From positions 514,697-578,696 of the forward strand of contig SCSM01000011.1 of NCBI GenBank assembly GCA_004322215.1: a DNA stretch of 64,000 nucleotides. Direction: 5' to 3'. This DNA is from Bacteroidota bacterium. GTDB taxonomy: Bacteria; Bacteroidota; Ignavibacteria; Kapaibacteriales; UBA2268. This document shows positions 2,345 to 61,099 of this stretch, piece after piece. The notes beneath the pieces are model-generated. The model searched no databases. It saw nothing but the letters and a program-made list of their open reading frames with translations, and was not told the origin of the DNA. The translations under genes were made by a program, and so were the position numbers. The first letter of the stretch is position 1, and each line of letters starts with the position of its first letter.

Positions 2345-3718
2345 TCATTTCACCGGTTTTCCAATTATCTTATTTGTACTTTTCCCATTAAGAAAAGATA
2401 TTATTATTGAATCGGGTTTACTCCCTTTTTTCCCCGAAAATTCCAACCACCATCCTACATCATCCATAATAAATCTATTTTGAGTTTGTGCCAGCAAAAA
2501 TGAATTTCCAATCGTATTATTCTTTAGCATCAACATACCATCATGAATTTTTATATCTGCAATTGCACTATCCTTGCCGAATTTGAAATGGTATTTTCCG
2601 ATAAATTTTTTCATTTCTTCATGTTTTAATTTCTGCTTTGATGAAGGTTGTTTGCTGACAGCAAGTTGGATTAATTTTGGCTTTTGTTTAATTCTACCGG
2701 TTTTAGATTTTATTACTAATTCCATGAATTTCATTCTATGGGAATCTGAAACAAATTTACCTCTGTACGTATCAGCCCTGAATACAAATACCATGTCTGC
2801 TTTGGGAAGTATATATATGAATTGTCCTCCTAAACCCGAAGCACAATAAGCACCGTACTCATGGAATGGTTTAGAAATCCACCATAATAATCCATAACCC
2901 GAAAAATTTGTACTTCCGTTAATTTCAGAGTATGGATGAATGCTCTCTTTAATCCAGGATTCCTTAATTATTTCTCTATCTTTCCATTTACCATTCCTCA
3001 GGTAAAGCAATCCGAATCTTGCCATATCTCTTGCAGACATTTTAAGTAGGTACGCAGGATATTTGGAACCACCTTCTTCAAAATTGTAAAATCCGTCCGA
3101 TAGCCGGTAATCTTCCATCTGGAGCGGTTCAGCCAATTGTTCTTTAATATCTTCAAAGATACTTTTCTTTGTTTCTTTTTCCAGAATTGAACCGAGTGTG
3201 TTATAGTCCCAGTTGTTATAGCACCAGAAATCCCCCGGTTTGTGACTTCCTCTTACAGGACGGTTTTTTTTCATGCTTTCGGTTTCGTTTGCAGCAGGTA
3301 TATAAACACCTGAACGTGCTTTCAGAAGGTCAATGATTTTTGCTTGCTTTTCGAGATTTGTCAATGAATCCTTTTCGTCAAATCCGATTTCTTCTAAGGT
3401 TTTATTTATATCAATCCGTCCGCTTTCGACATGAATTCCGAATAATGCGGACAATATTGATTTTCTTATAGAGTGAACAAGATACCTGCGGTTTACATCT
3501 CCATAAGATAACAGGACATTCCCTTCATATATAACCATTACAGCTGATGCATTCATTTGCTTATATAACTTCTTTGCATCTTTCAACTTATCCGATGACC
3601 AGCCGGCTTCTTCAGGTGTTTTATACATTAACCAATTATTCCCAGGGTAATCTGAATACAAATTTGTATTCTGTCCGAGGAACAGGTGAATTATCAGTAT
3701 GTAAATTATTTTTCTCAT
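2345..3718 (-). CDS. Secreted serine hydrolase of the beta-lactamase (class C)/esterase family
   Basis: This 457-residue protein has an N-terminal signal segment. Motifs of the beta-lactamase-related serine hydrolase family are present: SxxK at Ser83-Lys86 (SIRK), YxN at Tyr167-Asn169 in a YNNWDYNTLG context, and a SGLGGQ element near residues 294-299 in place of KTG/HGG. Residues 230-280 (DMARFGLLYLRNGKW, SGYGLLWW) are typical of this esterase-like group. The C-terminal ~100 residues form a small beta domain. Enzymes of this family range from esterases to D-aminopeptidases, so the substrate cannot be named. Its 3' end abuts the Hc1-like gene. Confidence 0.88.
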   Translation of the reverse strand: MRKIIYILIIHLFLGQNTNLYSDYPGNNWLMYKTPEEAGWSSDKLKDAKKLYKQMNASAVMVIYEGNVLLSYGDVNRRYLVHSIRKSILSALFGIHVESGRIDINKTLEEIGFDEKDSLTNLEKQAKIIDLLKARSGVYIPAANETESMKKNRPVRGSHKPGDFWCYNNWDYNTLGSILEKETKKSIFEDIKEQLAEPLQMEDYRLSDGFYNFEEGGSKYPAYLLKMSARDMARFGLLYLRNGKWKDREIIKESWIKESIHPYSEINGSTNFSGYGLLWWISKPFHEYGAYCASGLGGQFIYILPKADMVFVFRADTYRGKFVSDSHRMKFMELVIKSKTGRIKQKPKLIQLAVSKQPSSKQKLKHEEMKKFIGKYHFKFGKDSAIADIKIHDGMLMLKNNTIGNSFLLAQTQNRFIMDDVGWWLEFSGKKGSKPDSIIISFLNGKSTNKIIGKPVK

Positions 3719-52099: not shown

Positions 52100-53362
52100 A
52101 TGAATACTTTTAAAATCAACTACTACCTTCAAACAGTTAAACATGACCGTGTTTACAGCTTCATTCTTATTTCAGTGGTATGGGACGGCAACCGGGTACG
52201 TACAACATTGAACTTAACGGTTGATCCAAAGTTGTGGAACAAAGAAAAGCAACGTGTCAAATCAAGTGCTATGAACCCACGCAAGACAAATGACATTCTG
52301 GATAAGCTTGTCTTTAAACTTAATGAGTATCATGATACCGTTAAGAGAGAAAAGAAGCGGTCTCCCACACCTGCCGATGTAAGACGAGCAATAAAAGCTA
52401 TTTTGCATGATAAACAAATCAAAGATCCAAAGCCAAAACCACAGAAAACATTTATGGAATATTTTGATGACTTTATCAAAGATTCTGAATCAGGTGACCG
52501 GCTGTCAAATGGAAACAAAGTCCAAATTAGCACGATACAGTCTTACGTAAGTGTCAAACACCATCTTGAAGATTACATTCAGGCCACAAAAGCTGTATTA
52601 ACATTTGAGGAAATTGATAATTTATTCTTTAACGGACTGACGAAGTTTCTAACAAACAAAAAGAGACTGTCGAATAATTCTCAGGGCAAAGTAATAAAAA
52701 CAATAAAAACTTTTATGCATGATGCTTTTCAGAGAGGGCTTCATACCAATTTAAAGTTCATCAAAGCTCTAAGGGTTAAGGATGAAGAAACCACAATGGT
52801 AGCTTTGACAGAAGATGAGCTTGTCAAGTTAGAAAATTTGAAGGGGCTGTCTCCAAGTAATGAGAAATGCAGAGATATGTTCTTGGTGCAAATATACACA
52901 GGACTTAGATACAGCGACCTTGCTAATCTGAAACCTGAGAACATTAATAGTAAAGAGAAAATTATTACACTTCAAACGATAAAAACTCAGGACAGACTGA
53001 CAATTCCATTGACAAGTAAGTTTGAGAAGATATTAGCTAAATATCCTGATAAACTTCCAGTCATTGCTAATCAAAAATACAATAATCATCTGAAAGAGAT
53101 TTGCAGGGCTGCTGAGATTAATAGTCCAATTCAGCTTGTACATAATGTTGGAGAAAAACGAATCGAAGAAACAAAACCTAAATATGAACTGATATCTTCG
53201 CATACGGCTCGCAGATCTTTTATAACGATTTCTCTAAAACGTGGCGTGATGCCTGAGATGGTACAACAAATTTCAGGTCACCGGAGTAGGAAGTCATTTC
53301 AGCGGTATGTGAAAGTGACATCACAGGAATCTGTCAAGGCTGTTGGTGATGTATGGGAATGA
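52100..53362 (+). CDS. Tyrosine recombinase (integrase) of the integrative element
   Basis: 420 residues with the Bacteroidota mobile-element layout: an arm-binding domain (1-95, VWDGNRVRTTLNLTVDPKLWN), a SAM-like core-binding domain (115-220) and the catalytic domain. The visible catalytic residues are Arg in YTGLRYSDLANL, the HTARRSF box (His, Arg), SGHRS His and the nucleophile Tyr in SFQRYVKVT. All key residues are intact. It is the first gene of the element and is preceded by TGTCAAAAA repeats. Confidence 0.95.
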   Translation: MNTFKINYYLQTVKHDRVYSFILISVVWDGNRVRTTLNLTVDPKLWNKEKQRVKSSAMNPRKTNDILDKLVFKLNEYHDTVKREKKRSPTPADVRRAIKAILHDKQIKDPKPKPQKTFMEYFDDFIKDSESGDRLSNGNKVQISTIQSYVSVKHHLEDYIQATKAVLTFEEIDNLFFNGLTKFLTNKKRLSNNSQGKVIKTIKTFMHDAFQRGLHTNLKFIKALRVKDEETTMVALTEDELVKLENLKGLSPSNEKCRDMFLVQIYTGLRYSDLANLKPENINSKEKIITLQTIKTQDRLTIPLTSKFEKILAKYPDKLPVIANQKYNNHLKEICRAAEINSPIQLVHNVGEKRIEETKPKYELISSHTARRSFITISLKRGVMPEMVQQISGHRSRKSFQRYVKVTSQESVKAVGDVWE

Positions 53363-53497
53363 TAATAAAACTGCTACTCAAATACTTCAACTAACTCCCA
53401 ACATTTAACAGGGAGAAATTTATTTACAATTCTATAATATTTATTTTTCCTTATCTAATTTCAAATTATTAGTATTACAATTATCATCAGATGATAA

Positions 53498-53830
53498 TTA
53501 TTGTTTAGCTAACAATTCATTTTGTTTATTTATAAGATTCTGAAGATGGGCTTTTTCTTTATTGAATTCCTGATTCAGTTTTTTTAATTGTGCTTTATTT
53601 TCTTTTATTTTCAATAATGATTTATCGAGTTCTCTTTTCTTTTGTCCAATCACTTCCACAATTAATTCTATAGTAGGTTTATTAGGGTATTGGAATTCTT
53701 TATCAAAGCTGAATTTTATTCCACATTGCTGATTCTTACATTTATACCTTTGCTTAGGACCGATATTCATTCTACCACTTTTAATAGCTATTCTTTTCGC
53801 ACATGCTGGGCATAAATAATATTCTTGCAT
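53498..53830 (-). CDS. Zinc-ribbon plus coiled-coil protein
   Basis: About 110 residues from the ATG at 53830 (AAAGGATAT upstream). Two CxxC-type pairs (YLCPACAKRI and YKCKNQQCGIKF) form a zinc ribbon; the C-terminal 50 residues are a Lys/Leu/Glu coiled coil. Members of this type occur in mobile elements as DNA-binding accessory proteins. It is transcribed toward the integrase and may regulate it, but this is not shown. Confidence 0.6.
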   Translation of the reverse strand: MQEYYLCPACAKRIAIKSGRMNIGPKQRYKCKNQQCGIKFSFDKEFQYPNKPTIELIVEVIGQKKRELDKSLLKIKENKAQLKKLNQEFNKEKAHLQNLINKQNELLAKQ

Positions 53831-54015
53831 GATATATCCTTTAGTAAAAAATACAATATAAATAATACACAATTAACTTGAATAATTCAAATATTAATTT
53901 GACAAATAAACCCACAAATGTAGTCGTGGAGTTATAAGTCATTTATTATCATGGATTTACAAAAAGATAAAGGTTCGACATACGTGAATAGGCTTTGAAT
54001 TAATTAAGGCATGTT

Positions 54016-54279
54016 ATGGAATGGTTTATTGAAAAATTTATTGAAATGGTAATCCCACATCTTAGAACTATTGTTAGAGAAGAATTTGATGAAGCTTTTA
54101 AGCAGTTATTGCCGCAAGAAAATAAGCAAGAGCATTATACACGAATTCAAACTCAACAGCTCTTAGGTGTATGCTCATCAACTCTGTGGAAATATGAGCG
54201 TTTGGGAATTCTTTGTCCGGTTAGACTTGGTCATAGAGTATACTATAAAAGTGAAGATATTAAAAAAGCAATGAAATAA
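54016..54279 (+). CDS. Excisionase-like HTH protein
   Basis: 87 residues. The C-terminal half (HYTRIQTQQLLGVCSSTLWKYERLGILCPVRLGHRVYYKSEDIKKAM) is a MerR/excisionase-like winged HTH of the HTH_17 family, with wing-tip YYK. The N-terminal helix (EWFIEKFIEMVIPHLRTIV) looks like a dimerisation segment. It lies between the integrase and the element's gene array, as excisionases often do. Confidence 0.75.
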   Translation: MEWFIEKFIEMVIPHLRTIVREEFDEAFKQLLPQENKQEHYTRIQTQQLLGVCSSTLWKYERLGILCPVRLGHRVYYKSEDIKKAMK

Positions 54280-54332
54280 TATGACTTATGAAATTAATTA
54301 ACGATTTATTTATATATAATGGAGGCTCAAAT

Positions 54333-55181
54333 ATGAGCAAAATCAAAAGAAACCGCAGAAATGCGGCACGCAAAGCCATTAGAAATTCCATGGCAGAAAA
54401 AATAACGGGTCAAAAAAAACCTATTTACTTTGTTTACACTTCTGTGTTGAAAGACAAAAGCATACAGGAAGTAATGATGCAATCAGCCAGGGCAGTTGAA
54501 CGTGGTCCCGCCGTAACTTCAACGCAAAAGAAAGCAGAGTTCAATCATCTAAAAGAAACTTACGGAGTGCTGTTAGTGATGAATAAGCAAGCTAATTATT
54601 TGTTTATTCCATTGTCAAAGCTCATGTCGAATAAGGGGGAAACAGATTCTGAACTCGAACTTTGGGCAACTGCCTTCTTAGAACTATCTTTATTCAAACA
54701 AGGTTGGGTTGCTCAGGATTTCACTTACGAATATGTGTCTCATTTAGTTAAAATAAGTGAGATTTTGTCTATTTATCCAGAATGGCTGGACAGTCTATGC
54801 ATTATGAATAATGATAATGCTGAACGTATCCTACCAGAAATCTTTGCGCTGCCACAGACTGAACGTAATCGGGCATTGGACGAATATTTTGAAAATGCAA
54901 AATCTCAATATAATCATGTTGAGATTGAACAACAAGAAAGATTAGAAAACAAAATGGTTGGTGATCATTATGGTATGTGGATTGACATTGCAGCTATCAA
55001 TGCTCTTGATGAGAATGAATATCCGATGGTGATATTAGATGCTTCCCGTGGACTGCTGCCTATCACACAAGCTGAAATTGAGAAATTCAAGGAATTTGCA
55101 AATTCAGGAATAAATGTTAAAAATTATATTGACCAATTATGGGCTGATAGGAAGTCCGTTAGTAATGAGGAAACATGTTAG
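54333..55181 (+). CDS. Unknown protein of the integrative element
   Basis: About 282 residues from the ATG at 54333, which has a strong GGAGG 7 nt upstream; the longer frame to 54288 lacks one. The N-terminus is Arg/Lys-rich (RNRRNAARKAIRNSMAEK), suggesting nucleic-acid binding; the rest is mixed alpha/beta with a YFVYTSVLKDKSIQEVMMQSARAV segment. No family is recognised. It starts the gene run that ends with the replication genes. Confidence 0.7.
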   Translation: MSKIKRNRRNAARKAIRNSMAEKITGQKKPIYFVYTSVLKDKSIQEVMMQSARAVERGPAVTSTQKKAEFNHLKETYGVLLVMNKQANYLFIPLSKLMSNKGETDSELELWATAFLELSLFKQGWVAQDFTYEYVSHLVKISEILSIYPEWLDSLCIMNNDNAERILPEIFALPQTERNRALDEYFENAKSQYNHVEIEQQERLENKMVGDHYGMWIDIAAINALDENEYPMVILDASRGLLPITQAEIEKFKEFANSGINVKNYIDQLWADRKSVSNEETC

Positions 55182-55243
55182 GCTACTTATTCCGGAACAA
55201 TGGATTTATGGAAAATGATTTACACTAATTTTTCTATCACACT

Positions 55244-55271
55244 CCCCCGGCTACATTGTCGGGGGCTTTTT
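55244..55271 (+). terminator. Junction hairpin 1
   Basis: CCCCCG (55244-55249) pairs with CGGGGG (55260-55265) over a 10-nt loop and is followed by CTTTTT. Only 13 nt separate its T-run from the ATG at 55285, too little for a promoter. Confidence 0.75.
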
Positions 55272-55284
55272 AAAAGGAGTATTT

Positions 55285-55800
55285 ATGAAAAAATTTACTA
55301 TTAAATTAACTGCATCTCAGTTTGATTTGTTCTGTTACTCTGGATTTCTTTTATACAAAAAGCTAACAAAAAAATTAAGCAATACGAATCCGAGTGATGA
55401 AGCCAATAACAATGATCATTCCCTTTCAAGGGTTTGCATGACCATGGGTGAAGCAATGTATTCAATCCATAATCAGTTAGAGAGAAGGGAATTCAAAGAT
55501 TATTGTGATGATGAAGCTGAATATTTATATCTGAAAAAAGAATTTTTCAAACAACCAAAAAAAATATCGAGGGTTTCTGAATTATTCCCTGAGAATCAAC
55601 TGAAATCAATCATACCAGCTAAAGATGATACAATGTCCGAATCAGTTGAGAGTAAGGATATAATTTCATCCCCAGTTACAATGCAATCAGAAAATCAAAT
55701 AAGTTATGAGCCGGGACCTGTCGTGGAAAAAATAATTAAGACTGATACAGATGAGAATGAAGTTTTTATTCAGAACAATGACGTTGTTAATGCTGAATGA
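55285..55800 (+). CDS. Unknown acidic protein of the integrative element
   Basis: 171 residues, acidic in its last third (SESVESKDII to ENEVFIQNNDV). The N-terminal ~90 residues are helical (KLTASQFDLFCYSGFLLYKKL, MTMGEAMYSIHNQLERREFKDY). Not recognised. The AAAAGGAG ribosome site lies just past the hairpin at 55244-55271, so translation starts right after a terminator-like structure. Confidence 0.65.
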   Translation: MKKFTIKLTASQFDLFCYSGFLLYKKLTKKLSNTNPSDEANNNDHSLSRVCMTMGEAMYSIHNQLERREFKDYCDDEAEYLYLKKEFFKQPKKISRVSELFPENQLKSIIPAKDDTMSESVESKDIISSPVTMQSENQISYEPGPVVEKIIKTDTDENEVFIQNNDVVNAE

Positions 55801-55814
55801 TAATGTTTAATCCA

Positions 55815-55843
55815 TGCCGGAGTTCACTCCAGCATTTTTTTTT
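55815..55843 (+). terminator. Junction hairpin 2
   Basis: TGCCGGAG and CTCCAGCA pair (one mismatch) around TTCA, with nine T residues after. The next ATG at 55855 is 12 nt after the T-run. Confidence 0.75.
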
Positions 55844-55854
55844 GAAAGGTTTTT

Positions 55855-56424
55855 ATGAGAAAAAAAGATGAAGCTTATTACCATGATTTATTGCGACGGG
55901 TAAAAGAATTACCGAATGGTGGTGATGCAGTTGCGTTTATAAATGAGCAAGATTTCTGCATTGGATTATATTCGTTAGAGGAAGTATTGTTTAACCCACC
56001 AACCCAATACATGAATAAAGTCATAGCTAATGATTGTGAATTAATAATTTTTTGGCAAACCCATGATTCGAAAGATGAGAAAATCTTTAAACAAGGTTGT
56101 GAACTGGAACATCAAATGCGATTAATACGTTTTAAATATCATTGTCACCCCAAATGGTGGCTGTTAGATTCAGATAGAGATTTAGTAGCAGTAGAACGTA
56201 TTCAGAAAGATTGGGGTAATATGTGGGAGTTTCTACCAATATTACTTCGGAGTGAATCTGAATATGAGCAACTCATGCAGAAAATAAAAATTGAAATAAA
56301 AAGGCAGGAAGAATTGGATAAACTGAAAGCTGAAAACCATGAAAAAGCATTGCAAGAATTATCTGATACTTGCTTAGAAGTTTTCGGGAAAGCAATAGAC
56401 AAAGATAAATTTTATCCTATATAA
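55855..56424 (+). CDS. Unknown protein of the integrative element
   Basis: 189 residues beginning MRKKDEAYYHDLLRRV. An AVAFINEQDFCIGLYSLEEVLF segment and a MRLIRFKYHCHPKWWLLDSDRDL stretch look like a mixed alpha/beta fold, then a Lys/Glu helix closes the protein. No family is recognised. It is preceded and followed by terminator-like hairpins. The GAAAGG ribosome site lies within 8 nt of the hairpin's T-run. Confidence 0.6.
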   Translation: MRKKDEAYYHDLLRRVKELPNGGDAVAFINEQDFCIGLYSLEEVLFNPPTQYMNKVIANDCELIIFWQTHDSKDEKIFKQGCELEHQMRLIRFKYHCHPKWWLLDSDRDLVAVERIQKDWGNMWEFLPILLRSESEYEQLMQKIKIEIKRQEELDKLKAENHEKALQELSDTCLEVFGKAIDKDKFYPI

Positions 56425-56433
56425 TTTTTTACA

Positions 56434-56464
56434 CCACCCGAATAATTCGGGTGGAAATATTTTT
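56434..56464 (+). terminator. Junction hairpin 3
   Basis: CCACCCGAA and TTCGGGTGG form a perfect 9-bp stem with TAA loop, followed by AAATATTTTT. It lies 23 nt before the ATG at 56488. Confidence 0.75.
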
Positions 56465-56487
56465 GAATATCATTTTAAGGAGAAAAT

Positions 56488-57066
56488 ATGATTATGAGAA
56501 TTAATAGAAAACATGTAGTACCGGACTTATCGTATGACAGTAAAATAAGTCATACACTTGCTTACACGAAACAAATGTTCGGTGATACAATGATACCAGT
56601 ATTCCGAAATGGAGATTATTCATTTGTACCACTTGATGATTTATCTGACTGGGAAAATAACGTTTTTCATAATACCATGCAAAAGTTTATTATACCTCCG
56701 CTACCGCTTTATGAAATATGCAGACGTTGTTATAATCTCATGTTATCAACACCTGCATCAGGTATAATACCGGAGAGATTAAAACCTCTGGAATATTTCG
56801 TTTATGATGAAGGCAAGAAAATACAAATCGAACGGATATTATTTGATAATAGGGCGAGGTTTGATAAATATATTCACAAAGAGAAAATCAATGGAAAGAT
56901 TGATTTGTACCTTGAGAAGGTACCAAGTCCAAAGCCGTCACGCATGATATTCAAATATAAAAAATCTTATGTGCGACCACTGTGGAATACTGATAGCGAA
57001 TTACCTGAAGCGAAGATGGTTGATAAAATGATTGATGAATCGAGGAAAATCATCATAATGCATTGA
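56488..57066 (+). CDS. Unknown protein of the integrative element
   Basis: 192 residues (MIMRINRKHVVPDLSYDS...). The C-terminus is basic and charged (KKSYVRPLWNTDSELPEAKM). No family recognised. The AAGGAG ribosome site lies between hairpin 3 and the start. In context it is one of the series of small genes each preceded by its own hairpin. Confidence 0.6.
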   Translation: MIMRINRKHVVPDLSYDSKISHTLAYTKQMFGDTMIPVFRNGDYSFVPLDDLSDWENNVFHNTMQKFIIPPLPLYEICRRCYNLMLSTPASGIIPERLKPLEYFVYDEGKKIQIERILFDNRARFDKYIHKEKINGKIDLYLEKVPSPKPSRMIFKYKKSYVRPLWNTDSELPEAKMVDKMIDESRKIIIMH

Positions 57067-57082
57067 TAATATCATGTACACT

Positions 57083-57105
57083 CCCCGGTCCTTCATGTAC
57101 CGGGG
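57083..57105 (+). terminator. Junction hairpin 4
   Basis: CCCCGGT and ACCGGGG form a 7-bp stem around a 9-nt loop. No T-run follows, so it may be an mRNA-processing or stability structure rather than a terminator. CATGTAC words flank it on both sides. Confidence 0.6.
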
Positions 57106-57167
57106 AACTTGTATGGCTATGAACAAATTTGAAACAATTTTTATTTATTATTTATAGGAGATTTTGT

Positions 57168-57380
57168 ATGTCTGAGAATAATACAGATTTTTTAGCAAAA
57201 GCAAACATGAAGAAAGTGCGAATTGAACAATTACCTGATATTGATGAGATATTGATTAATTATCAGAATATAATTCTGGACGATATTATTGATACTAATG
57301 ACCTAAGTGATGAAATGGTTTCGGAAATTGAATATTTACTTATTCAAGAGCTGTTAGTTAAGGATATTCTTGAAAATTAG
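57168..57380 (+). CDS. N-terminal part of a TAG-interrupted paralogous protein
   Basis: 70 residues (MSENNTDFLAKANMKKVRI... LLIQELLVKDILEN), start at the ATG 57168 with AGGAGA upstream. It ends with a TAG at 57378-57380. The same frame continues without another stop from 57381 to 57800. Alignment with the two other copies of the repeat puts the TAG where they have a conserved Trp. The two parts are therefore probably one gene broken by a TGG-to-TAG change, unless the codon is read through. Confidence 0.6.
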   Translation: MSENNTDFLAKANMKKVRIEQLPDIDEILINYQNIILDDIIDTNDLSDEMVSEIEYLLIQELLVKDILEN

Positions 57381-57392
57381 CAGGAAATTATT

Positions 57393-57800
57393 TTGTACTG
57401 TAATACAGAAGATTCAAAAGATGCACCGGATTACAAAAAGGGAATGATGGTCTTAGGTGCACAAATGAAGGCATTATATAATCGAGCTAAAGTAGTCTTG
57501 CTTGAATATACGGGACTGAATATAGATAATATACAATCTGTAAAAATAGAAGATAAAATTGAGAAAATGAAATTAGAGTATCTTATGTCTGTGGATGCAG
57601 GTGAGGAAAATGAATTTCCAGATAATTGGATGGTAATGGATATTACCATATTTAATTACTGGCATCGCATTATTGAGTTTTTAAAAAATGCTTATATCGA
57701 CGATAAACCAGAATACAAAGAGCAAATGATAGAAATAGGTGATGAAGTCGAAGCATTATTTAAACAACTTGAAGAAGTATTTAAGAGTATCCTTGACTAA
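57393..57800 (+). CDS. C-terminal part of the TAG-interrupted protein, with two repeat modules
   Basis: 135 residues in the same frame as 57168-57380. It contains YKKGMMVLGAQMKALYNRAKVVLLEY and later WHRIIEFL...EYKEQMIEIGDEVEALFKQLEEV, both copies of the module also found in 58241-58606. The TTG at 57393 has no ribosome site, so an independent start is unlikely. The function of the module is unknown. Confidence 0.55.
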   Translation: MYCNTEDSKDAPDYKKGMMVLGAQMKALYNRAKVVLLEYTGLNIDNIQSVKIEDKIEKMKLEYLMSVDAGEENEFPDNWMVMDITIFNYWHRIIEFLKNAYIDDKPEYKEQMIEIGDEVEALFKQLEEVFKSILD

Positions 57801-57823
57801 AATTTTTTTACGAAATTAAAATC

Positions 57824-57857
57824 ACTCCGACACTGATTATACCGGAGTATTTTATTA
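57824..57857 (+). terminator. Junction hairpin 5
   Basis: ACTCCG and CGGAGT pair over a 13-nt loop, followed by ATTTTATT. It lies 73 nt before the ATG at 57930. Confidence 0.6.
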
Positions 57858-57929
57858 GTTAAACAATTTACAATCTACGAAGGATGAGAGTAAAATTTTA
57901 ATAACTATTGTTATCAAGGAGTGAAAGTA

Positions 57930-58142
57930 ATGACAAAAGTAATATGTAATGAATGCGGATATATTGAGAATGAAAATTCGTTGGTATTTATTGAAGGAAC
58001 TTTTGATTATAATGGAGATTTCTTCCCTAAATATAATGGTGGAATGGACTATATTATATGTGGTGGATGCGGTGAATATCTTCACCCGGATTATGATGTT
58101 GAGTATGAAGATGAAAGTAATGAATCAACGATGATAAATTAA
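57930..58142 (+). CDS. Zinc-ribbon protein of the integrative element
   Basis: 70 residues. VICNECGYIE and YIICGGCGEYLHPDYD give two CxxC pairs, a zinc ribbon; the tail is acidic. The AAGGAG at 57916-57921 fits the ATG at 57930 with an 8-nt spacing; a GTG at 57921 overlaps that site. No family recognised beyond a zinc-ribbon protein. Hairpins precede and follow it. Confidence 0.65.
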   Translation: MTKVICNECGYIENENSLVFIEGTFDYNGDFFPKYNGGMDYIICGGCGEYLHPDYDVEYEDESNESTMIN

Positions 58143-58166
58143 TAATTAAAAGAAAAAAATTCTCAC

Positions 58167-58186
58167 ACTGGCATTCGATGCTCAGT
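58167..58186 (+). terminator. Junction hairpin 6
   Basis: ACTGGCAT pairs with ATGC/CAGT (one bulged T) around a TCG loop. A short T-rich stretch follows. The next ATG is at 58241. Confidence 0.5.
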
Positions 58187-58240
58187 TGGCTTTTATTAAA
58201 GTAAATAATTAATATTAATAACAAATTAAAGGAAATATTT

Positions 58241-58606
58241 ATGGCAAAGAAAAAAACAAGAGTGTTTACAAAGGTTAATTCCAAGAGGGATCAAATTGAA
58301 CAGAATTCATCTGATAAGGTTAACATTCCAATCGAGAAGGAAGAGCAACTTCTTGAAGAAATGAAAAAAGGAAAAGATCTGTTTGAAAACATGGTGATGA
58401 GATATGAAAGTGTGGTAATTGGGAAAAAAAGAATAATAGAACTTTTTGCTCATTGGGATGATATTATGGAGTTTTTACTTACACCACATAATGATGTAGA
58501 GCCGGTATACAACAAGCAAATGACAGAGATAGGTGAAGCTATGGCACCCTTATATTATCGAGCTAAAGAACTATTGACAAAATGGGGTGATATAAACTTT
58601 GATTAG
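58241..58606 (+). CDS. Unknown protein with one copy of the W-x2-I-x-EFL/YxxQMxEIG module
   Basis: 121 residues. A Lys-rich N-terminus and a helical middle are followed by AHWDDIMEFLLTPHNDVEPVYNKQMTEIGEAMAPLYYRAKELL, clearly related to the modules in 57168-57800. It keeps the Trp that is TAG in the other gene. An AAAGGAAAT ribosome site precedes the ATG. Function unknown. Confidence 0.65.
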   Translation: MAKKKTRVFTKVNSKRDQIEQNSSDKVNIPIEKEEQLLEEMKKGKDLFENMVMRYESVVIGKKRIIELFAHWDDIMEFLLTPHNDVEPVYNKQMTEIGEAMAPLYYRAKELLTKWGDINFD

Positions 58607-58618
58607 CGAAATTAATAC

Positions 58619-58650
58619 ACCGGTACAGTATCATGTACCGGTTGTTTTTA
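58619..58650 (+). terminator. Junction hairpin 7
   Basis: ACCGGTACA and TGTACCGGT form a perfect 9-bp stem around a 6-nt loop, followed by TGTTTTTA. It lies 27 nt before the ATG at 58677. Confidence 0.75.
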
Positions 58651-58676
58651 TAACAATTTTTTTATTGGAGAAAATT

Positions 58677-58823
58677 ATGGCAAAAGTAAGTAAAGATTCT
58701 GATAGAGAATTTAGTGAAGAAGAAATTAAATTCATTGATAATATAATAAACATTATAAGAATTCAATTATATCATGTCCAGAACGACCCACAAAATGCAA
58801 TTTGTGGTTTTTCCGAAGCATGA
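58677..58823 (+). CDS. Small protein of the integrative element
   Basis: 48 residues (MAKVSKDSDREFSEEEIKFI... PQNAICGFSEA), start at the ATG 58677 with TTGGAGA 9 nt upstream. It is predicted helical and amphipathic. No family recognised. It lies between hairpin 7 and the pseudoknot region. Confidence 0.6.
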   Translation: MAKVSKDSDREFSEEEIKFIDNIINIIRIQLYHVQNDPQNAICGFSEA

Positions 58824-58884
58824 TATAGTAAATACAGCTATTAAACAAATGTTTAATCTTAGATAATATATACAATAAGAAAAA

Positions 58885-58906
58885 AATTCGGGGTAGCTTC
58901 CGAATT
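58885..58906 (+). promoter_or_regulatory. Junction hairpin 8a, before the pseudoknot
   Basis: AATTCGG (58885-58891) and CCGAATT (58900-58906) form a perfect 7-bp stem with an 8-nt loop, directly upstream of the pseudoknot stems. Confidence 0.6.
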
Positions 58907-58908
58907 GA

Positions 58909-58964
58909 CTGGGTAGGGTTTATATGTGGTTCCCTCCCTACCCAGATGTTTATTCAAGGGAACC
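58909..58964 (+). promoter_or_regulatory. H-type RNA pseudoknot candidate upstream of the replication initiator
   Basis: Stem 1 is CTGGGTAGGG (58909-58918) with CCCTACCCAG (58936-58945), 10 perfect bp. Stem 2 is GGTTCCCT (58928-58935), in the loop of stem 1, with AGGGAACC (58957-58964) outside it, 8 perfect bp. The loops are 9, 0 and 11 nt, the geometry of an H-type pseudoknot. A second GGGAACC at 58977-58983 ends one base before the ATG at 58985 and can compete for the same GGTTCCC. The structure could switch translation of the initiator. Confidence 0.75.
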
Positions 58965-58984
58965 GAAAAGAGTAATGGGAACCA

Positions 58985-60076
58985 ATGAGAAGAAAAAAAC
59001 ATAATAATTTATCTGATTTTAGGTCAGAAAAATTCATCCGATGGGCTGAACAGACCACATCTCATTATGAAGTTCCTAATAGATATTGGTCAAAAGACTG
59101 GTATAGGTTAAAACCTACTTACAAAGCAATTTTCGATTTTCTAATTTCACAAGCAAAGTATAAACCAACTGAGAAACTTGGTATCGGGCAGTGTTCAATC
59201 GGAACAATTGAGTTATCAGTATTGTTCGATATACCACGTTCAACTTTAATAGACATACTTCATTTCCTTGAAAAAGAAGGTGAGATAACACTGGAACCAA
59301 CAAATAAATATACCATTGTTACAATTAACTACTTGACAGAAAATATTGACGTAAGTAGTAATGATTTGCTAAGTCCGTCATCAAAAACACAAAAACCCGT
59401 CATCAAAACACGAAAAAACCGTCATCAAAAAACAGTTGTTAGTGTTTCTGGTTCATTGACTTATGAGAGTGAAGCTGAAAATCTCCGTCATCAAAACACT
59501 GAAAACCCGTCATCAAAACACGAAATTTCCGACACACCTATATATGATATAATAGATGAAACAGATGAATTAGTCAAAAATGAATTTTTGTCTGATAATA
59601 ATATACTTTATAAAAAAGGAAAACATGATATGAGTTCAAAAACAAAAACTAAAGTTGCACCGCTTTTTGAAGAACAGATAGATATAAGTAATATCTCTGT
59701 TCAGATACCAAAAGAAAAGAAGCCAAACATACCTTTTATTATACTTAACATTTGGTGCGAAGAGTATCAGTTAAACCGGAGGTTAAAATATCCAGTTCAA
59801 AAGGGAAGAGACCTAAAAGGGTGCAAGTATTTATTACTTGAGTACCAAAAAGAAAGTCCTAATGCTACGTTAGATGATATAAGAGCTTACTTCCGTGACT
59901 TCTTTAAGAAAGTTCTTTCTATTGAAGATAACAAATATATCTATTTAAAAGCCGCACCAATGTTCATTTATTCTGAGCTTTCACAAATAAATATAATTTT
60001 AAGTAAGCATAAGCAATCGTATTCATCAGTTGGGCAAGCGGCAGGAACAGGGAACTATAATTTACCATTAAAATAA
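58985..60076 (+). CDS. Replication initiator (lambda O-like) with in-gene iterons
   Basis: 363 residues. Residues ~50-105 (FDFLISQAKY, CSIGTIELSVLFDIPRSTLIDILHFLEKEGEITL) are a winged helix, as in phage O-type initiators. A low-complexity Ser/Lys/His linker (~130-185) is encoded by 22-bp direct repeats. The C-terminal domain (IWCEEYQLNRRLKYPVQKGRDL to FFKKVLSIEDNKYIYLKAAPMF) probably contacts the helicase loader. The next gene, 10 bp later, is a DnaC-like ATPase, which is the lambda O/P arrangement. Its expression is probably controlled by the pseudoknot at 58909-58964. Confidence 0.75.
   Translation: MRRKKHNNLSDFRSEKFIRWAEQTTSHYEVPNRYWSKDWYRLKPTYKAIFDFLISQAKYKPTEKLGIGQCSIGTIELSVLFDIPRSTLIDILHFLEKEGEITLEPTNKYTIVTINYLTENIDVSSNDLLSPSSKTQKPVIKTRKNRHQKTVVSVSGSLTYESEAENLRHQNTENPSSKHEISDTPIYDIIDETDELVKNEFLSDNNILYKKGKHDMSSKTKTKVAPLFEEQIDISNISVQIPKEKKPNIPFIILNIWCEEYQLNRRLKYPVQKGRDLKGCKYLLLEYQKESPNATLDDIRAYFRDFFKKVLSIEDNKYIYLKAAPMFIYSELSQINIILSKHKQSYSSVGQAAGTGNYNLPLK
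59375..59528 (+). repeat. Array of 22-bp iterons, candidate replication origin
   Basis: CCGTCATCAAAA-type repeats start at 59375, 59397, 59419, 59485 and 59507, so all spacings are 22 bp or 66 bp (three periods). Since 22 is not a multiple of three, the repeats are read in three frames and encode different residues (SSKTQK, VIKTRK, RHQK). Selection is therefore on the DNA. An AT-rich stretch (59530-59620) follows, a possible unwinding element. This matches the lambda origin plan, in which iterons lie inside gene O. Confidence 0.85.
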
Positions 60077-60086
60077 AGGAGGAAAT

Positions 60087-60701
60087 ATGAAAATGATGGG
60101 AATAGTTGAGGACATTCGTAAACATGATATTGAGTGTTTATCAACAGATGAAATTGTTCTTATGATTGCAGAGCGGTTAGAACCAAAGTTTGAGATAAAT
60201 GATAACAACAGACAGTTCTATAATCAGTTAAAGTTTTACTTTACAAAAGATGTAAAGTTTAATGGAGACCTGAATAACGGACTACTCGTATTAGGTGGAT
60301 ACGGAACAGGTAAAACTTTGGCTTTGAAAATTTATCAAATATATAATTTGGCAGTAAAGAATAATAAATTCTTTCCAATCTTTGATACTGATGAAATAAT
60401 TGATTCATTCACAAAACAGGGACGACCAAGCATTGGCAAATACAACCCTGAATATGATATAGCAATTGATGAACTCGGTCAGGATACAGGCAAACATTAT
60501 TACTTCGGTTCAATTGACGATCCTGTTGATGTGTTGCTTGGGAGGAGATATAAGATGTTTAAGAATAATGGGATATTAACACACGGCACATCTAATCTGG
60601 ATGCTAACCAATTAAAAGAACGTTTCTCGGGCATGGTATATGACAGAATGTGCGAGATGTTTAATACAGTTCCGTTAGTAGGGGAATCTTGGAGAAGGTG
60701 A
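60087..60701 (+). CDS. DnaC-like helicase loader ATPase
   Basis: 204 residues. Walker A is GGYGTGKT (residues 70-77), Walker B is IAIDELGQ (Asp128, Glu129) and GILTHGTSNL is a sensor-1-like segment; an arginine-rich end (WRR) closes the protein. This is the DnaC/IstB family, which loads DnaB helicase at the origin. It starts 10 bp after the initiator gene with a strong GGAGG, so the two are co-translated like lambda O and P. Confidence 0.88.
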   Translation: MKMMGIVEDIRKHDIECLSTDEIVLMIAERLEPKFEINDNNRQFYNQLKFYFTKDVKFNGDLNNGLLVLGGYGTGKTLALKIYQIYNLAVKNNKFFPIFDTDEIIDSFTKQGRPSIGKYNPEYDIAIDELGQDTGKHYYFGSIDDPVDVLLGRRYKMFKNNGILTHGTSNLDANQLKERFSGMVYDRMCEMFNTVPLVGESWRR

Positions 60702-60760
60702 AAACTGATTGAATAATTGAATACGATAGTAATTTGTTTTATCAATAAATGAGGTTAATT

Positions 60761-61099
60761 ATGAGAGTTGAATTGATGAAAAGAAATAGGGATAGAATCA
60801 AATGTTATGGGACATTTAAAAATACAGGGACGAAAAGTGGATGGCAAGGTGAAATTTTACCTACAGTTCTTTTGACTGATATAAGAGATGAGCAAGGCAA
60901 TATACTTACTGACCATCTGTGGTTCAATTTGACAAAGCAATTTGAGAAGTTAGGTGAGATACCGGCAGGGACAAAATTAGAGTTCGAAGCAAGAGTTAAA
61001 GAATATTTCAAAGGCTATGTCAATCGTTGGAATGATATTGATGAAAGAAGGAACGACTACAAATTAAGTTATCCGACTAAGGTCAGAATTGTAAATTAA
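60761..61099 (+). CDS. OB-fold-like small protein of the replication module
   Basis: 112 residues from the ATG at 60761; the GAGG at 60752-60755 fits this start better than the ATG at 60749. KSGWQGEILPTVLLTDIRDEQ, DHLWFNLTKQF and GTKLEFEARVKEYFKGY have the strand pattern of OB-fold, SSB-like proteins seen next to phage or ICE replication genes. It may bind single-stranded DNA at the origin. Moderately confident in fold, not in function. Confidence 0.55.
   Translation: MRVELMKRNRDRIKCYGTFKNTGTKSGWQGEILPTVLLTDIRDEQGNILTDHLWFNLTKQFEKLGEIPAGTKLEFEARVKEYFKGYVNRWNDIDERRNDYKLSYPTKVRIVN

Follow-up and report, generated by a model that had tools for sequence, protein, structure and literature searches.

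How might the RNA in front of a replication initiator gene govern its translation? The question is raised by the leader at 58885-58985 of the stretch of DNA analysed here (64 kb in length, hereafter the window), in which a single word in a hairpin loop has two complementary copies downstream, the second of them at the start codon. The protein encoded directly after this leader has a confident predicted winged-helix domain at residues 31-120. A fold search of the PDB gave generic winged-helix proteins as the best matches, none below E 0.001, and the adjoining gene encodes a DnaC-like helicase loader, which shares 52% identity with the loader of a related element in genome G035 and 58% with that in G012. 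Because of the DnaD-like match (Table 1), the DnaC-like neighbour, the winged helix and the internal iteron-like repeats, the name initiator, which the protein had received in the initial annotation, appears to be sound. The iteron-like repeats are the probable origin. The G035 homologue also contains two blocks, at the equivalent place (L031, 10471-10647), with a 21-nt period and different letters, and the blocks lie ∼65 nt apart in both elements. The initiator and the helicase loader belong to an integrative element (52100-61099) that also carries a tyrosine integrase, a MerR-like excisionase candidate and small unknown genes. The integrases of this and the G035 element share 48% identity and the gene order is similar; no att sites or element ends were found using repeats of at least 16 nt.

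Architecture of the initiator leader

The leader begins with a 5′ hairpin, followed by a perfect stem-loop (stem 1) and two receivers for a word in the stem 1 loop (Table 1). The first proposal for this site was an H-type pseudoknot with stems of 10 and 8 bp and loops of 9, 0 and 11 nt, and direct reading reproduces this geometry: the loop pairs with downstream sequence and the two stems abut, as in H-type pseudoknots generally. It likewise bears out the second GGGAACC at 58977-58983, which ends one base 5′ of the ATG at 58985; the eighth pair of this copy is A58984 with T58927. As judged from the sequence, both alternative folds are H-type pseudoknots that retain stem 1 and share one strand. 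The initial annotation had described two mutually exclusive pairings, one of them covering the start. The exclusivity and the covering of the start now have strong support from homologues and from one unrelated leader, and what has to be amended is that the copy-2 fold is itself an H-type pseudoknot.

Table 1. Features of the window at the initiator leader and of the corresponding leader in genome G641
Feature	Position	Strand	Sequence	Remarks
Probable promoter	58842-58847, 58867-58872	+	TAAACA, TATATA	Read by eye; not called by the consensus scanner
5′ hairpin (P0)	58885-58906	+		7 bp, 8-nt loop; begins the leader and precedes the pseudoknot region
Stem 1	58909-58918 with 58936-58945	+	CTGGGTAGGG, CCCTACCCAG	10 perfect pairs, 17-nt loop; read directly
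Pseudoknot loop L1	58919-58927	+	TTTATATGT	9 nt; read directly
Loop word (S2 5′ strand)	58928-58935	+	GGTTCCCT	0-nt gap to stem 1
Pseudoknot loop L3	58946-58956	+	ATGTTTATTCA	11 nt; read directly
Receiver copy 1	58957-58964	+	AGGGAACC	8 pairs, −14.9 kcal/mol as duplex; pseudoknot 1, would leave start free
Receiver copy 2	58977-58984	+	GGGAACCA	8 pairs, −14.9 kcal/mol; pseudoknot 2, would cover ribosome site and start
Replication initiator (putative)	58985-60076	+		363 aa, winged helix; phrog_7498 DnaD-like helicase loader, E 9e-6 (weak)
Iteron-like repeats	59374-59530	+	CCGTCATCAAAAxCAC...	22-nt period, two blocks; inside initiator gene
DnaC-like helicase loader	60087-60701	+		PHROG DnaC-like loader, E 6e-9; strong GGAGG Shine-Dalgarno, −12.0 kcal/mol to the anti-Shine-Dalgarno
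G641 stem			GGGTACAGAG/CTCTGTACCC	Perfect 10 bp
G641 loop word			AGTCCTTTA	Abuts stem; pairing word GTCCTTTA
G641 first receiver			TAAAGGACT	9 bp
G641 second receiver			TAAAGGAC	8 bp; 4 nt upstream of ATG

The 5′ hairpin and stem 1 are the only strong hairpins predicted in the leader, and neither spans the start. Folding of the leader with RNAfold, a program that is blind to pseudoknots, returns z = −2.3. Promoter-like boxes were called by the scanner in the corresponding leaders of G012 (TAAACA-17-TATAAT) and G035 (TCGATA-18-TATACT), where the −10 box ends 13 nt 5′ of the hairpin. The TATATA box of the window ends ∼13 nt upstream of its own hairpin, and this similar spacing suggests that 58842-58872 is the probable promoter of an mRNA whose leader is ∼105 nt long. 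The loop of the 5′ hairpin (58890-58897) contains GGGGTAG, a partial repeat of the stem 1 5′ strand that might pair with the stem 1 3′ strand; no such loop repeat is present in G012 or G035.

The window contains no Rfam family above the gathering score. Both of its strands were scanned for the architecture itself, defined as a stem of at least 9 bp and a loop of 8-22 nt in which a 7-mer has its complement present twice within 60 nt, and the present site was the sole match. In 150 simulated 64-kb windows there were no matches with 7-mers and three with 6-mers, and when a perfect 9-bp stem was required, 151 Mb of simulated sequence yielded one match with 6-mers and none with 7-mers. The simulations exclude a chance origin of the two-copy structure.

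Conservation in related elements and a fourth leader

Within genomes of the order, close homologues of the initiator occur only in G035 (42% identity) and G012 (two segments, 38% and 29%), which belong to other genera of the same family (G012 to Kapaibacterium). Protein searches of viral contigs, phages, plasmids and genome contigs gave no relatives of the initiator; a helicase-loader profile had no match in viral contigs and, in genome contigs, matched the G012 record alone. The G012 initiator gene (L007, 1456-2151) has an in-frame stop inside a 63-nt repeat region and may be inactive or decaying, or else misassembled. More distant winged-helix genes (in G010, G026, G076, G077 and at a second G035 locus) have no such leader where checked.

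In both G012 and G035 the leader adjoins the initiator ATG. It opens with a 5′ hairpin, after which come a strong stem 1 (GCCGGATGGGAG.../...TCCGGC) with its loop word and then two receivers. The equivalents of the loop word are AGCTCTT in G012, AGCTCTTT in G035 and GTCCTTTA in a fourth leader, G641 (see below), each separated by 0 nt from stem 1. This junction, present in all four leaders, fits coaxially stacked H-type pseudoknots. The word AGCTCTT is shared by G012 and G035 and is unlike that of the window, and the receivers match it: the first is AAGAGC or AAAGAGT and the second is AAGAGCTA, which ends 1-2 nt 5′ of the ATG. The spacing from receiver to receiver in the three initiator leaders is 19, 18 and 16-17 nt.

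Covariation was counted on a structure-guided alignment of the three leaders that was placed by hand to suit the structure. When the 5′ hairpin, stem 1 and the copy-2 helix are combined, 96.3% of cells are paired, and both sides have changed in 10 pairs. None of 500 shuffles reached these values, and partners slid by 1-3 columns gave at most 57% and 2 pairs. For the structure with copy 1 the figures are 93.7% and 9 pairs. Taken separately over the same three leaders, stem 1 has 97% of cells paired (four pairs changed on both sides), the copy-2 helix 100% (four of eight pairs) and the copy-1 helix 91% (three pairs). The position and shape of the 5′ hairpin are kept in G012 and G035, with 90% of cells paired, two changes on both sides and one mismatch, in G035. 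Few unpaired positions are invariant among the three homologues. The initial annotation had itself named compensatory change in homologues as its check, and such changes are present in stem 1 and in both forms of stem 2. As read from three sequences, both pairings are conserved with compensatory changes. Since G012 and G035 share their word, the homologues contribute one independent change of word, to which the G641 leader adds another.

A covariance model made from the three leaders, which encodes stem 1 and letters and is blind to pseudoknots, was run on 294 genomes of the class. It returned the three leaders at E-values of 1e-15 to 1e-20 per genome, these being its own training sequences. 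Beyond them a single weak match fell below E = 0.01, in G641 (0.0037 per genome, where about one is expected by chance), and this E-value is not used here because the model partly favours receiver-like letters. The G641 leader has the same design with a third loop word (Table 1), and its copy 2 contains a true Shine-Dalgarno sequence, AAAGGA. The gene that follows (L045, 8638-9187; G641:C7) is unrelated to the initiator and is flanked by a tape-measure gene and a probable tail-tube gene on a 44.8-kb phage-like contig; neither this tail gene nor its neighbour has relatives in the collections beyond its own contig. A four-row alignment including G641 was left out of the counts, owing to misplacement by MAFFT, and its pairs were read row by row. 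None of the 29 other weak matches of the second model (22-29 bits) has the two-receiver design, one of them being a 6-bp stem with TTTCAA only, and the other loci scanned contain no comparable structure. The rate at which such a structure would occur at a start, extrapolated from the simulations, is well under one per gigabase. Given this rate and the absence of the design from the 29 other matches, the G641 leader is probably a real instance of it.

Several candidates were rejected. A match to the G012/G035 stem pattern in G436 falls within a TolC-like coding sequence, a G007 match falls within a glycosyltransferase-like coding sequence, matches in the IMG/VR contigs L042 and L043 have no receivers near a start, and L049, a long hairpin, has only one match, of 6 nt. 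L043, a 4.8-kb viral contig, contains at 3106-3132 a perfect palindrome (CCCGGATGGGAG...CTCCCATCCGGG) that is unrelated to the leader.

A proposed translational switch and its rivals

We propose that the initiator leader is a cis-acting translational switch built from one loop and two receivers, and put the probability of this reading at about two in three. Stem 1 would serve as a rigid stem-loop presenting a loop word of 7-8 nt, and the same complement would be offered by both receivers, copy 1 lying ∼20 nt upstream of the AUG and copy 2 in contact with the AUG as well as the ribosome site. Only one pseudoknot could exist at a time, each receiver using the same stem 1. Pairing with copy 2 would cover the ribosome site and turn translation off, while pairing with copy 1, the receiver transcribed first and hence able to pair first, would leave the ribosome site open and translation on, so that copy 1 would act as a decoy of the ribosome site. 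The outcome could be set by the order of folding or by a trans factor such as the initiator protein, an antisense RNA or ribosome traffic. We infer that the folds form in the RNA, that copy 2 represses and that the balance depends on folding order or such a factor.

In the window the only Shine-Dalgarno-like stretch of the initiator is weak (−5.6 kcal/mol) and includes the GGG of copy 2, and the anti-Shine-Dalgarno sequence of the host 16S rRNA is intact. The initiators have weak Shine-Dalgarno sequences in general, so that in three of the four leaders copy 2 is identified with the ribosome site chiefly by where it lies. Since it occupies this position in every leader, and in G641 matches the ribosome site by sequence as well, its pairing should repress translation. 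Simple estimates of the fold balance, from duplex energy, junction stacking and loop length, place the two folds within ∼4 kcal/mol of each other in all four leaders. Copy 1 is favoured by 3.4 kcal/mol in the window and by 2.3 kcal/mol in G641, copy 2 is favoured by 3.9 kcal/mol in G012, and the two are near equal in G035. This balance fits a switch with differing set points, the resting state of which is not conserved.

One version of this proposal, with a named trigger, is a protein-controlled operator, in which a protein of the element, perhaps the initiator itself, binds one pseudoknot and locks it, in the way that gp32, S4, S15 and L20 do on their own mRNAs. Such control is known for DNA-replication proteins (T4 gene 32, PMC3014915) and the gene controlled here encodes a predicted winged-helix, nucleic-acid-binding protein, but the unpaired loop sequence is not strongly conserved among the leaders and the G641 gene is a structural tail gene, and we consider this account unlikely. 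The strongest rival, antisense-RNA control of copy number in the style of IncI/IncB/IncFII plasmids, is rather unlikely as well. According to it, a minus-strand RNA running from the initiator gene to 58885 would kiss the stem 1 loop and block the pseudoknot, with the receivers tuning the response. On the minus strand a perfect terminator-like hairpin is present at 58906-58885 (AATTCGGAAGCTACCCCGAATT followed by TTTTTC), a promoter-like site, TTGACC-18-CATAAT, faces it from 59093-59064, and the loop word varies by element lineage as incompatibility determinants do (PMC10724649, which describes RNAI). Yet no terminator was called at the 5′ hairpin of G012 or G035, promoter-like sites barely exceed the shuffled expectation, a conserved leader peptide is absent and the G641 case involves no replication gene. 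As the terminator is missing in the relatives, it is at most a local addition in the window. Together, the terminator- and promoter-like sites would give an antisense RNA of ∼170 nt across the leader.

That the fold is incidental, and that stem 1 and the three GGGAACC/GGTTCCC words instead bind a repressor or the initiator in DNA, as an operator or part of the origin, is very unlikely. Operator repeats are frequent at the starts of replication genes and iteron-like repeats lie just downstream, but the words bear no relation to the iterons of the gene, the spacing of the receivers varies, the start-proximal copy holds its position relative to the ATG, stem 1 also has compensatory changes, and all four leaders place the word inside a strong stem's loop, 0 nt from that stem. 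Least probable is an ordinary hairpin, the terminator of the upstream gene, accompanied by chance matches. AATTTTA does follow stem 1 in G012 and G035, and strong intergenic hairpins are common; against this, a distinct terminator-like site lies upstream (58788-58812), the loops are 12-17 nt long, the simulations exclude chance, and both pairings are kept through compensatory changes, a conservation that already contradicts this reading. A metabolite riboswitch is also unlikely, hardly any unpaired position being conserved among the three homologues.

Relation to known systems and significance

In replication-control regions of the IncI/IncB type (repZ; IncI-alpha, IncB and IncL/M), a pseudoknot activates translation by opening a separate hairpin, and a leader peptide and an antisense RNA are needed. 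The present leader shares with these plasmid systems a stem-loop that pairs, through its loop, with downstream sequence close to where a replication gene starts, but it is without a separate inhibitory hairpin and without a conserved leader peptide, and signs of an antisense RNA are present in one of three leaders. Short upstream frames exist (in the window, MFIQGNRKE at 58946), none of them common to G012 or G035. The comparison with plasmid rep pseudoknots drawn in the initial annotation thus holds only as an analogy: neither a conserved leader peptide nor the separate hairpin is present, the antisense terminator is not conserved, and it is the start-proximal pseudoknot strand that forms the ribosome site. 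In riboswitches of the SAM-II and preQ1 types a hairpin loop pairs with the Shine-Dalgarno region around a conserved ligand pocket. The hiding of the Shine-Dalgarno region would be similar here, whereas the leaders conserve almost nothing outside the stems and the stem 2 words of different lineages bear no relation to one another.

Translation of T4 gene 32, the E. coli alpha operon (S4), rpsO (S15) and rpmI (L20) is likewise repressed by pseudoknots that lie within or ahead of the ribosome site (PMC3014915, PMC10931766), but each of these operators is a single protein-stabilised pseudoknot without a duplicated receiver. In the aapA3 toxin mRNA of Helicobacter pylori, metastable hairpins formed during transcription also hide the Shine-Dalgarno sequence, although these are simple hairpins with neither a pseudoknot nor a shared loop word (PMC6733600). 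The closest published idea is that of timP, from the type I toxin-antitoxin system timPR, the mRNA of which adopts mutually exclusive conformations 5′ of the start, a pseudoknot among them, that determine whether translation is initiated (PMC11228461). In timP only the active form is a pseudoknot, which joins two stem-loops upstream of the ribosome site, and control is exerted by the antitoxin sRNA (PMC11228461); in the present leader the two states would both be pseudoknots that use the same loop, and the ribosome site itself serves as one of the receivers. A limited search of the open-access literature gave no case in which the receiver is duplicated and two pseudoknots compete for a single loop. 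The leader is therefore best regarded as a putative translational-control pseudoknot of a known kind in which the duplicated receiver appears, within that search, to be new. Less probably, it might stand for a new class of RNA switch, in which one loop serves two pseudoknot-forming receivers and the distal receiver acts as a decoy for the ribosome site. Such a class would occur in mobile elements and phages before unrelated genes, with divergent words and geometry alone in common, and would be invisible to sequence-based families.

A review of 2010 considered T4 gene 32 to be possibly the only viral case of translational autoregulation by a pseudoknot (PMC3014915). The design described here is compact, with two competing pseudoknots and one shared strand in ∼75 nt (58909-58983); it is conserved by compensation before the initiator of an integrative element and is found again before a phage-like tail gene. 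Since the pairing words diverge completely, further examples could be sought by geometry rather than by sequence. To our knowledge no such system has been described in this branch of the phylum. If the proposed switch is correct, the leader would provide a simple model of translational control by folding order and would be a regulator of mobile-element replication in this branch.
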